From assembly GCA_902609885.1 (NCBI GenBank), contig CACLTT010000002.1, forward strand, positions 1-64,000: a stretch of 64,000 nt of DNA, read 5' to 3'. The stretch's first letter is position 1. Each line of letters starts with the position of its first letter. The notes beneath the pieces are model-generated. The model saw only the letters and a list, made by a program, of their open reading frames with translations, made no database searches and was not told the origin of the DNA. This DNA is from an uncultured Candidatus Hydrogenedens sp. (GTDB lineage Bacteria > Desulfobacterota_D > UBA1144). Of this stretch, positions 23,417 through 26,597 are shown one piece after another. A program made the translations under genes and the position numbers.

Positions 23417-23668
23417 TTATAAAGGGTTTGTTATCAAAGATGCTAAAATGCTTAATATTATAAAAACTCCAATAAATGTAATCATTATGTAGCAATGCTT
23501 GTAAGTAGTGCCTTTATGAACATTGGGAACTCTATCTGGGTATGGTAAGACTTTATGTTCATTTTCAGGTGACATATCCTCATTTACATCACTACTAGAA
23601 TCAGAGATTGTTTCTTTAATTTGTGTGTTTTCAGCTTCCGAAGCTTGCTCTTTAATTTCCTCACTCAC
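23417..23668 (-). CDS. Small acidic single-pass membrane protein, function unknown
   Basis: I do not recognise this 83-residue protein. Its first 45 residues are acidic and hydrophilic (many Glu, Ser, Asp and Asn). A short conserved-looking stretch follows (KVLPYPDRVPNVHKG), then a membrane segment from about 60 to the end (MITFIGVFIILSILASLI). The frame opens with GTG and no Shine-Dalgarno is visible. It is convergent with uvrA (7 nt gap) and divergent from the rhodanese gene. Coding potential is supported by the coherent soluble-plus-transmembrane layout, but homologues would be needed to be sure. Confidence 0.5.
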   Translation of the reverse strand: MSEEIKEQASEAENTQIKETISDSSSDVNEDMSPENEHKVLPYPDRVPNVHKGTTYKHCYIMITFIGVFIILSILASLITNPL

Positions 23669-23710
23669 ATTTAAAAAATATCATAACTTCATTTTTATGC
23701 AATGAATTTC

Positions 23711-23738
23711 GTAGTAGTTACTTTTTTTATACTACTAC
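23711..23738. repeat. Inverted repeat with 8-bp arms upstream of the rhodanese
   Basis: GTAGTAGT (23711-23718) and ACTACTAC (23731-23738) are perfect inverted arms separated by 12 nt that include a run of T. It is not followed by a T-run in a position that would make a terminator for either neighbour. It lies in the divergent gap between the 83-aa gene and the rhodanese. Confidence 0.4.
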
Positions 23739-23746
23739 CCAAATAG

Positions 23747-23765
23747 ATATTCTAATATAGAATAT
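23747..23765. promoter_or_regulatory. 19-bp palindrome, putative operator of the rhodanese gene
   Basis: ATATTCTA-ATA-TAGAATAT is a perfect inverted repeat with 8-bp arms. It covers the region where the -35 of the rhodanese promoter would sit, if TATTAT at 23771-23776 is the -10. It contains the half-sites ATTCTA and TAGAAT, which recur in inverted order at 23783-23797. Confidence 0.42.
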
Positions 23766-23770
23766 ATCAC

Positions 23771-23776
23771 TATTAT
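23771..23776 (+). promoter_or_regulatory. Candidate -10 element for the rhodanese gene
   Basis: TATTAT matches the consensus in five of six bases and sits between the two palindromes. The hexamer 17 bp upstream (TATTCT) is a poor -35, which would fit a promoter needing an activator at the upstream palindrome. This is inference. Confidence 0.3.
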
Positions 23777-23781
23777 TTTTT

Positions 23782-23798
23782 TTAGAATTTTATTCTAA
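23782..23798. promoter_or_regulatory. 17-bp palindrome just upstream of the rhodanese ribosome binding site
   Basis: TTAGAAT-TTT-ATTCTAA is a perfect inverted repeat with 7-bp arms. It is followed directly by a strong Shine-Dalgarno GGAGG (23800-23804) and the ATG at 23812. Its centre is 34 bp from the centre of the first palindrome. In RNA it could form a 7-bp hairpin in the leader. Confidence 0.42.
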
Positions 23799-23811
23799 CG
23801 GAGGAAAGAAT

Positions 23812-24654
23812 ATGGCAGAATACGCAAATCCAGATGTATTGGTAAGTACAGAATGGGTTCAAGAAAATATAGGTAAAGATGGAATTAAAATTATCGAATC
23901 TAATGAGGATATTTTACTTTATGATATTGGTCACATTGAAGGAGCAATTAAGTTAGATTGGGAGACTGAGCTTCAGGATAAATTGGTTAGAGATTATATT
24001 GATAAAGATAATTTTGAAAAGCTAATGTCTTCAAAAGGGATATCTCGTGATGACACAGTTGTTTTTTATGGAGATAAAAGTAATTGGTGGGCATGTTACG
24101 CACTTTGGACATTTAAGGTTTATGGCCATGAGAAATGTTTAATAATGAATGGTGGAAGACAAAAATGGATTGATGAAAAAAGAGATATTACTAAAGATGT
24201 AGCAGATTACTCAACTACAAATTATAAAGTCGATTCAACAAATGACGAAATTAGAGCATTTAGAGATGAAGTAAAAAAACATAGTGATTCGGGGTTATTG
24301 CTAATTGATGTAAGGTCTCCAAAAGAATATTCTGGTGAATTATTACATATGGAAGCATATCCTCAAGAAGGTGCGCTTCGAGGTGGGCATATACCTAATG
24401 CTAAGAGTGTTCCCTGGGCTACTGCCGCAAACGAGGATGGTACTTTTAAAAGTGCTGATGAATTGACTGCAATTTATAAAGAAGGTGCAGGTCTTGATCC
24501 AAATCAAGATATAATTGCATATTGTAGGATTGGCGAAAGATCTTCTCATACATGGTTTGTTTTAAAATATTTACTTGGCTATGAAAGTGTCAAAAACTAT
24601 GATGGGTCGTGGACCGAATGGGGAAATTTAGTTAAAGCCCCTATTGAAAAGTAA
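23812..24654 (+). CDS. Thiosulfate/3-mercaptopyruvate sulfurtransferase (tandem rhodanese)
   Basis: This 280-residue protein has two rhodanese domains. The C-terminal one is catalytic, with Cys238 in the [13 protein letters not shown] loop. The N-terminal one has Asp in place of the cysteine ([10 protein letters not shown]), as is usual for the inactive half. It transfers sulfane sulfur from thiosulfate or mercaptopyruvate; the CRIGERS loop resembles thiosulfate-type enzymes, but that is inference. It has a very good ribosome site (GGAGG, 7-nt spacer). Next downstream is an Fe-S scaffold gene, so a role in sulfur supply for clusters is plausible. Confidence 0.9.
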
Positions 24655-24744: not shown

Positions 24745-25179
24745 ATGGCTCAGGATAAACAAGAATTAATGGATTTCATATTGGATCACTACGAGAATCC
24801 AAGAAATGCTGGTACTATCGAAGGCTCAGATAAAAAATTGATCAGCGATGCTGACATCTGTCAAAATGGAGGAAATCCCGGATGTGGAGATATTGTTACA
24901 ATTTGTCTGAAAGTTGATAACGGCAAAATCGTGGATATTAAATTTGAGGGAGAAGGTTGTATCGTAAGCCAAGCTGGAACTTCAATTATCACCGAGAAGG
25001 TATTAGGTAAGGATTTAGACGATGTTTTAGCCATGGGCCCCGAGATGATGACTGAAATATTGGGAGAAGAGCTAACGTTATCAAGGCCTAAATGTGCTAC
25101 ATTAGGATTAGCTACTGTAAAATTAGCTATTACTCAGCTCAGAAGGAGTGAAATGAAGAAGGCTAACAATATAGAATAA
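24745..25179 (+). CDS. Fe-S cluster assembly scaffold, IscU/SufU (NifU N-terminal) family
   Basis: The 144-residue protein starts with the family block MDFILDHYENPRNAG and has the three conserved cysteines: Cys47 in NPGCGD, Cys72 in EGEGCIVSQAG and Cys117 in PKCATLG. The CATLG ending is SufU-like, but it lacks the long insert that SufU has before the third cysteine, so its subtype is intermediate. Extra cysteines lie at 39 and 54. No cysteine desulfurase is adjacent; the rhodanese upstream is the only sulfur-transfer gene nearby. There is no visible Shine-Dalgarno because a hairpin and T-tract end 4 nt before the ATG. Confidence 0.85.
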   Translation: MAQDKQELMDFILDHYENPRNAGTIEGSDKKLISDADICQNGGNPGCGDIVTICLKVDNGKIVDIKFEGEGCIVSQAGTSIITEKVLGKDLDDVLAMGPEMMTEILGEELTLSRPKCATLGLATVKLAITQLRRSEMKKANNIE

Positions 25180-25241: not shown

Positions 25242-26597
25242 ATGGCAAAGAAAAATGGTAAAAATGGAAATGGAAAAATTAATTATGATGCAGCTTTAAA
25301 TTATCCTTTATTTGAAGCTATCTTTAATCGTAGATCTAGAAGATTTGGAGCAGGTATGGAGCTTCCTTCTGATAGTAGCCTAGGACATAAGTCTGAAATT
25401 CCTCCAATAGCTTTGACTGAATTTCAAGAGGCTATGTTAGTATGGGCTGGCACTGGACTAACAGGACTGTGTTTGGCTGACTTACCACCAGAAAATGGAA
25501 TTGATTTATTATGTCAGTGGACTGGTAGAACTTGGCCCTCTGCATGTAATAATCATGGAACGGAATTATTTTTTACTAACGATTCAGGTTTATATTGGGT
25601 AGATGTTAAAAACATGCTTCCTAAAGATAAAGAGCTAGATATGTTTTTTAAACTTGATCGAGATGATAAAATTGACAGATTATTAGAATTATATAGAGAT
25701 GGACTTGTTAAATTGGAGGATGGAAGAGCCAATTTGCCTGATAAAATGCCTGGTCTTTTTGATTTCAATCAATGGAATACAAATAAGCCTGGCACTACAA
25801 CTTTTATTCCTGTTACAGATATAACTGAAGAATACTTAAATTTATTAACCTTATATTGCAGTAGCACATATGCATTTAACATTTGGGATGAAAAACATAA
25901 CAGGTCCTGTGGCCAAGATAAGTGGATCAAATCTGGAAGAATTAAAGAAGAAGTTAAAATGTCCTTATATGATCTTGAGGTTAGAATTTTAACAGGATTA
26001 AATGTTGAGCAGGCATTTATTTGTCAAAATATGTCCCTTGCATTACAAGCACTTGGCTTGGGTGGATGGACTTTTACAGGTCTAATTCCTAGATTTACAT
26101 TGGGTTCAAATCCCGAACTTTTTAAAGGTTTAGGTTTTAGATTTGAGCAGCCTAAATCCGGACCAACTAGGCCTGTTGGTAGAGATGGAGTTTTTCAAGG
26201 ATATTGTCCTCCATATTATAAATCAATGTCAGAGGCTTATAATGCCATGGATTCTCATAAATGGGCAGCTTGGGATAGTAGCAAAAAACCTTTTCCCTAT
26301 GAGGAACCCGACAAGCATTTAGTTAAGGCTCCTAGACCTACTGATACCACAAGTGAAATTGTGAAATCTGTTGCAGATTATATTTATGATGCTTATGGAT
26401 CATTTCCAGCTTTTGTTGACCCTATGTATATGAGATTGGTTTTTCAAGCTCAAAACTTAGATCTAGACTTCTATGATAAGTACTACCCACCTGGATCATA
26501 TACCGATCAACATGTTAATACCTTTAAGTATTTTCAACCTGAAATTAAAAATCCTTATTCCCAAAAACCTTCAAAAAAATACCCTTGGGATAAGTAA
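25242..26597 (+). CDS. Uncharacterised protein with a nitroreductase-like N-terminus
   Basis: The 451-residue protein is not one I can assign. After a Lys/Gly/Asn-rich start, residues 17-45 (YPLFEAIFNRRSRRFGAGMEL) resemble the RRSxR opening of flavin nitroreductases. The WAGTGLTGLCLADLPPENG segment near 72 is compatible with that fold. Later parts are rich in Trp, Tyr, Phe, Pro and Gly (GLGGWTFTGL, GYCPPYYKS, YYPPGSYTDQH), with no signal peptide or membrane segment. It has a good ribosome site and its own likely promoter. The length is about double that of a plain nitroreductase. It could be an oxidoreductase, but cofactor and substrate are unknown. Confidence 0.6.
   Translation: MAKKNGKNGNGKINYDAALNYPLFEAIFNRRSRRFGAGMELPSDSSLGHKSEIPPIALTEFQEAMLVWAGTGLTGLCLADLPPENGIDLLCQWTGRTWPSACNNHGTELFFTNDSGLYWVDVKNMLPKDKELDMFFKLDRDDKIDRLLELYRDGLVKLEDGRANLPDKMPGLFDFNQWNTNKPGTTTFIPVTDITEEYLNLLTLYCSSTYAFNIWDEKHNRSCGQDKWIKSGRIKEEVKMSLYDLEVRILTGLNVEQAFICQNMSLALQALGLGGWTFTGLIPRFTLGSNPELFKGLGFRFEQPKSGPTRPVGRDGVFQGYCPPYYKSMSEAYNAMDSHKWAAWDSSKKPFPYEEPDKHLVKAPRPTDTTSEIVKSVADYIYDAYGSFPAFVDPMYMRLVFQAQNLDLDFYDKYYPPGSYTDQHVNTFKYFQPEIKNPYSQKPSKKYPWDK

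Follow-up and report, generated by a model that had tools for sequence, protein, structure and literature searches.

A predicted leader hairpin beside the Shine-Dalgarno sequence of a rhodanese gene from a probable Dadabacterium, and a possible SAM- and cysteine-reading leader in sister genera

The start codon of a rhodanese (sulfurtransferase) gene in the genome of an uncultured bacterium, very likely a member of the Dadabacteria (G000; 984,991 bases in 11 contigs), is preceded by two mirrored palindromes that are built from the same half-site, which raises the question of whether these are binding sites for a regulatory protein, structures of the leader RNA, or coincidences of base composition. 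The stretch of DNA that was analysed, 64,000 nucleotides in length, is referred to below as the window. An earlier note on this DNA had described the two palindromes with 3-nt centres that lie 34 nt apart, around a TATTAT and directly before a GGAGG. On re-reading of the sequence the palindromes were exactly at the coordinates it had given, with centres at 23756 and 23790, TATTAT at 23771-23776 and the ATG at 23812. The features of the locus are the following.

23417-23668, minus strand: divergent frame of 83 codons, acidic at its start and hydrophobic towards its end (by eye), with no family match.
23717-23739, plus strand: promoter element GTTACTTTTTTTATACTACTACC, common to the promoter of an SBP56-family gene, including a -10-like TATACT at 23728-23733.
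23747-23765, no strand assigned: palindrome 1, ATATTCTA-ATA-TAGAATAT; Watson-Crick pairs, counted by eye, are 8 of 8 in G000, 7 of 8 in G002, 6 of 8 in G001 and 4 of 8 in G004.
23776-23783, plus strand: run of eight T on the 5' side of hairpin 2; the minimum-energy fold predicted for the G000 leader pairs it with the Shine-Dalgarno (SD) region.
23782-23798, plus strand: palindrome 2, TTAGAAT-TTT-ATTCTAA, a predicted leader hairpin that ends 1 nt on the 5' side of the SD.
23800-23804, plus strand: SD sequence GGAGG, read from the sequence.
23812-24654, plus strand: two-domain rhodanese of 280 aa, matching PF00581 in two stretches, with the mercaptopyruvate sulfurtransferase model below its cut-off.
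24745-25179, plus strand: IscU/SufU-type Fe-S scaffold protein of 144 aa, matching PF01592, with TIGR01994 below its cut-off.

A 451-codon frame on the 3' side of the scaffold gene (25242-26597) matched nothing in Pfam or NCBIfam at E 0.001.

The window contains 52 perfect inverted repeats of 6 nt around a 3-nt centre, its shuffled versions 43.8 on average, and single palindromes of this kind are therefore ordinary in a window so rich in A and T. Palindromes 1 and 2 are the one pair in the window that shares a half-site within 60 nt; a pair of this kind was found in 1 of 100 dinucleotide-shuffled windows when the centre was fixed at 3 nt; with centres of 3-8 nt admitted, it was found in 3 of 40. 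The possibility that the shared half-site is a chance match in AT-rich DNA, and that palindrome 1 has no function, is evenly balanced, and it is compatible with the explanation preferred below for palindrome 2. It draws on the abundance of single palindromes, on the pairs that appear in shuffles when the centre length is free, and on the absence of four of the eight pairs of palindrome 1 in G004, against which stands the retention of 8, 7 and 6 of the 8 Watson-Crick pairs in three close species, in one of them by way of a two-sided change.

The palindromes had been guessed to be paired operators bound by a repressor that senses sulfur or redox state. Half-sites that mirror each other exactly, at a spacing of about three helical turns, would suit such a pair, as would its rarity in shuffles with a 3-nt centre (1 of 100), and the two-sided change in palindrome 1 of G001 preserves a symmetry that also fits a dimer site. 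However, an exact search of the 985-kb genome placed ATTCTAnnnTAGAAT at one position and TAGAATnnnATTCTA at two, the second of which lies within a 586-codon frame, so that there is one intergenic place per motif, with no second intergenic exact copy of either, and a genome-wide regulon of the exact motifs was rejected on this ground. Copies with up to two mismatches, sought in the 64-kb window, were not enriched over shuffles for either motif (9 copies versus a shuffle mean of 15.5 for one, and 15 versus 16.7 for the other). The sharing of the half-site between the palindromes decays within the genus: G000 has it exactly, G002 with one differing letter, and G001 and G004 have lost it. Palindrome 1 reads ATATTCTG-ATA-TAGAATAT in G002 and resembles ATATTTTG-ATA-TATAAAATAA in G001, where one pair is changed on both sides, one has become G.T and one is broken; four of its eight pairs are broken in G004, the rhodanese protein of which is 85% identical. 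The sequence of palindrome 2 does not vary among G000, G001 and G002, and reads TTGAAATTATTTTTTAA in G004, where one two-sided change (G-C to A-T) is accompanied by a change of A-T to G.T and by loss of the innermost pair. Conservation upstream of orthologous rhodaneses, which the earlier note had proposed as a check, is not what an operator pair would show, the half-sites being nearly intact in G002 only. The palindromes were not seen, by eye, at the SBP56-family gene that has the same promoter element, and palindrome 2 adjoins the SD, which also tells against an operator. A pair of operators is, on this evidence, quite improbable.

The other possibility raised for palindrome 2, a leader hairpin directly before GGAGG, was borne out by the orthologues, which have a stem at the same place with complementary changes. 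A search of the 14 family genomes recovered a rhodanese orthologue in 13, an order-level search having returned the same 14 genomes, and the 30 nt upstream of each SD were compared in stability with 300 dinucleotide shuffles per locus. In 11 of the 13 family loci the 3' arm of the hairpin stops 1-3 nt short of the SD, with wider gaps in G006 (8 nt) and G013 (12 nt), and the letters of the arms differ but remain complementary. Stability against shuffles was significant at p <= 0.05 in nine of the 13; that of G000 is a weak hairpin (-3.0 kcal/mol), with p values of 0.027 and 0.035 in two runs, p was 0.07 in G001 and G007, and the G004 hairpin is weaker still at -0.6 kcal/mol (p 0.61). Among the 19 window genes with a recognisable SD, five have p <= 0.05, and in two a fold at least as stable as -3 kcal/mol lies no more than 4 nt from the SD; the rhodanese is among them each time. 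The G000 hairpin alone is therefore not rare in the window, and what speaks for it is that relatives have one in the same position, not how stable it is. For arms picked by eye and chosen for their pairing, which are illustrative, shuffles reached the number of two-sided changes in 208 of 2000 and the number of pair types in 977 of 2000, so that neither exceeds the shuffled background. The minimum-energy folds of the G001, G002 and G004 leaders are not two tidy hairpins. A simple search with uncurated starts recognised no SD in 25 of 44 window frames; the rhodanese has GGAGG.

The remainder of the phylum supplied 37 rhodanese loci from outside the family, of which 35 were start-matched (L113 and L171 excepted) and 34 entered the hairpin test (without L176, the start of which was mis-called). 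Genus g17 of family f7 has a hairpin that ends 4 nt before the SD in all 13 of its loci, with p <= 0.05 in 12. This hairpin is GC-rich and stands before CGGAGG (L106, L108, L161-L165, L167, L168, L170 and L178-L180). In the g17 alignment 89% of cells pair, several of them as G.U, versus 24-42% when the arms are slid by 1-3 columns; L167, which is off register by one, was scored as unpaired in places. With the letters of the 3' arm shuffled, 10 of 500 trials reached the paired percentage and 350 of 500 the count of additional pair types. At the 21 loci outside family f1 and g17 (one of them from f7), p <= 0.05 was obtained once, for a fold of -0.2 kcal/mol, and a stem lies within 4 nt of the SD in three. 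The rhodanese of G044, a genome from the same class as that of the window, is at C76:4556-5395.

From the anatomy, positions and distribution of these sequence elements, which are observed directly, we infer an RNA function for the leader and a direction for its control. Palindrome 2 is probably, though by no great measure, a 5'-UTR stem-loop that tunes translation rather than an operator. Adjoining the SD of the rhodanese mRNA, the stem-loop would set the start of translation and perhaps the stability of the message, palindrome 1 would be a second, less conserved stem in this leader, which would measure some 72 nt given a transcription start near 23740, and transcription would be controlled jointly with that of another probable sulfur gene through the upstream element at 23717-23739.

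The same leader might instead be a temperature-sensitive or alternative-pairing switch, in which the T run masks the SD and the four shared arms form mutually exclusive stems. As such a switch would have it, the minimum-energy fold of G000 joins the T run to the SD region, the SD is unpaired with probability 0.45 in G000 and 0.33 in G004, and by sequence arm 1 and arm 4 are each able to pair with either arm 2 or arm 3. The SD is unpaired with probability 0.57 in G002 and 0.66 in G001, however, the arms are not common to both palindromes in G001 and G004, and no Rfam thermometer was found in the window at gathering score, all of which makes a switch unlikely. With regard to a FourU-type thermometer, the U run pairs with the SD in part of the G000 fold ensemble, and the window has no Rfam match.

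For control of transcription, the element upstream of the palindromes is a better candidate than the palindromes themselves. The pattern GTTACTTTnTTTATACTACTAYC matches at 23717-23739 without mismatch, and the shuffle mean is 0.01 matches per window at up to three mismatches. A looser pattern, searched through the genus at up to three mismatches, gave 13 matches, versus one for the reversed-pattern control. Eight of the 13 have no mismatch or one, and of these four precede the rhodanese gene and four the SBP56-family gene; the five with three mismatches include three frames that were named by eye, two of them orthologous and porin-like and the third otherwise outer-membrane-like. Fragments of the element showed no enrichment in the window. 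TATACT at 23728-23733 is identical in the four genus genomes in which the rhodanese was found (five were searched), whereas the TATTAT between the palindromes reads AATTAT in two of the four and is not the best candidate for the rhodanese -10. Transcription would begin near 23740. A sigma-70 and terminator scan of this stretch of the window gave the same number of sites as in shuffles. The partner gene matches PF05694 at 562 bits and falls far below the cut-off of the NCBIfam methanethiol oxidase model; its product is therefore only methanethiol-oxidase-like, with a putative function. Of the sulfur-responsive control suspected in the earlier note, a link to sulfur gains indirect support from this shared element and from the leaders of sister genera described next, and the operator pair is unsupported.

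In the six genomes of genera g2 and g4, the rhodanese leader comprises a SAM-II-like match, a short frame with cysteine runs, a U-rich stretch, a hairpin and GGAGG. The matches to RF00521 cover model positions 1-79 and score 25.2-35.8 bits, below the gathering score of 36, which is reached in none of the 14 order genomes (best 35.8 bits) and none of 14 control genomes. Below this cut-off there are 27 places in the 14 order genomes: 6 before rhodanese, 6 before sulfite reductase (identified by NF010029 above its cut-off), 3 before the SBP56-family gene and 12 before threonine synthase, the last in 11 of the 14 genomes (two in G005). A stricter filter of E <= 0.001 retained 12 of 57 phylum genomes, namely 11 of the family and G049. 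The matches in the sister leaders look like a SAM-II-like riboswitch, with predicted binding of the ligand. The window's genome keeps a match only before threonine synthase, directly upstream of the gene at G000:C3:69449-69522 (L124; 25.0 bits, under the cut-off). The window has no match to RF00521 at gathering score, and at the rhodanese of its genus (L004-L007) none was found up to E 1.

The short frame of these leaders, of which MVKTLFVLLVSEVDTCCCNFSNLCCCNYK is an example, has its own SD (read by eye). An ATG frame with at least three consecutive Cys codons is present in all 13 fully read leaders, of 15, that precede rhodanese, sulfite reductase or SBP56-family genes, and in 3 of 3000 shuffled leaders; in the L135 leader it is present if N is set to A, and the L118 leader, with two unread letters, reads ...SCCNFSNLCCCNYR with X. 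The 12 SAM-II-like leaders of threonine synthase, which are short (about 70 nt), have no such frame. At 80 named loci, a short upstream frame with a CC pair occurred in nine. One of these, in a member of the Anaerolineae (L039), has CC and CCC in a short frame that ends 209 nt before the rhodanese gene, and another, in a member of the Micrococcales (L068), has CC; at these two, the loci of the 80 that were searched for a SAM riboswitch, there was no match up to E 0.1. The 35 start-matched loci of the phylum outside the family have a CC frame in two cases and a CCC frame in none. A double Cys-run pattern occurs in 17 of 57 phylum genomes and its reversed control in 12 of 57, so that the pattern alone proves little. 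No terminator was found between the upstream frame (uORF) and the gene in the three leaders scanned (L012, L013 and L126); in L012 a terminator-like site closely follows the aptamer, and L013 and L126 have no terminator.

The rhodanese of the window genus has no frame with at least three Cys codons in up to 400 nt upstream in four members (348 nt in G004). A 14-codon frame of G000 at 23702-23746 was considered as a leader ORF and discarded, as it is interrupted in G001. A parallel is found in the SBP56-family leaders of g2 and g4, which have both aptamer and uORF in three of six cases: the leader of G011 (L194) has a truncated aptamer and broken Cys runs and looks decayed, and those of G012 (L192) and G005 (L193) have neither element. 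The hairpin before the SBP56-family SD is kept in G011 (by eye) and G012 (-8.5 kcal/mol), and none was seen in G005. The window genus, with neither SAM-II-like element nor uORF at its rhodanese, may have lost them or may never have had them.

In the sister genera, abundant SAM would halt translation of the uORF, and a shortage of Cys-tRNA would stall the ribosome within it. A more far-reaching and tentative proposal, one that falls somewhat short of an even chance, is that in some marine Dadabacteria a SAM-II riboswitch gates a poly-Cys uORF and stalling in the uORF governs the SD of the main gene, so that the rhodanese, sulfite reductase and SBP56-family enzyme would be produced only when SAM and cysteine are both low; the window genus would have retained only the last hairpin and would use the shared promoter element instead. 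SAM should act on the uORF because the SD of the uORF is the first SD after the aptamer, and the terminator-like site of L012 means that transcriptional control may also take place. When six sister leaders were folded with a ribosome at three Cys codons or at the stop codon, accessibility of the SD was nearly equal in the two states; it exceeded that of the idle RNA in G005 only, and equally so with the ribosome at the stop codon. Either this folding model is too crude or the coupling is of a different kind, and simple opening of the SD is unsupported.

A SAM-II element is able to hide an SD (PMC9373788), and scarcity of cysteine has been proposed to stall a leader uORF in mycobacteria (PMC1262725; PMC13236596). 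Like the poly-Cys leader peptides of mycobacterial cys operons (PMC1262725; Canestrari 2020 as cited in PMC9094748 and PMC13236596), the uORF of the sister genera is short, has its Cys runs near the stop codon, and precedes sulfur genes with no obvious terminator; unlike them, it carries an SD of its own, comes after a SAM-II-like element, and stands before a rhodanese, sulfite reductase or SBP56-family gene. The window's rhodanese differs from the mycobacterial systems in having no Cys-run uORF. Tandem Cys codons are shared with the uORFC-8-2 motif before cysS in Rhodobacterales (PMC8632094), which has two Cys codons and an intrinsic terminator at its end, whereas the sister leaders have at least three consecutive Cys codons in 13 of 13 fully read cases and no terminator between uORF and gene in the three scanned. 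The SAM-II/SAM-V tandems of SAR11 (PMC9481103, PMC5069961) are similar in that SAM-II is the first of two elements, at sulfur genes of streamlined marine bacteria, but the second element of the sister leaders is a putative leader peptide that would read Cys-tRNA and not a second SAM aptamer. The SAM-II (SAM_alpha) regulons (PMC4239095, PMC9373788) likewise have full-length matches to the aptamer model before sulfur genes; their reported Proteobacterial targets include metY, metA, metX, metC, metW and hom, in contrast to the threonine synthase, rhodanese, sulfite reductase and SBP56-family targets found here in another phylum with scores just below the Rfam cut-off. The combination of SAM-II and a poly-Cys uORF was not found in the literature searched, which had most subscription papers outside its reach.

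The palindromes themselves amount to a modest leader hairpin, and the comparison with relatives matters more. The sister leaders seem to read SAM, by a riboswitch, and then cysteine, by a leader peptide, in series at three sulfur genes in genomes of about 1 Mb; the genomes of pelagic Dadabacteria are about 1.22 Mb according to PMC8115339. We infer this sensing of ligands from the leader sequences, and if it is true, SAM-II-like elements would extend to the Dadabacteria and the acquisition of sulfur would follow a two-input logic.

A sulfite reductase match (E <= 1e-30) is absent from G000, G001, G002 and G004, four of the five genomes of the window genus, in which assembly gaps are possible, whereas the remaining 10 of the 14 order genomes have one. 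This suggests dependence on reduced sulfur in the four; the habitat of the window's organism is presumably marine. Upstream of SBP56-family or sulfite reductase genes in genera g1 and g3 (L196, L197 and L187-L189), repeats resembling GTTACTTTTTAG were seen by eye at a spacing of about 20-22 nt, and are perhaps activator sites.
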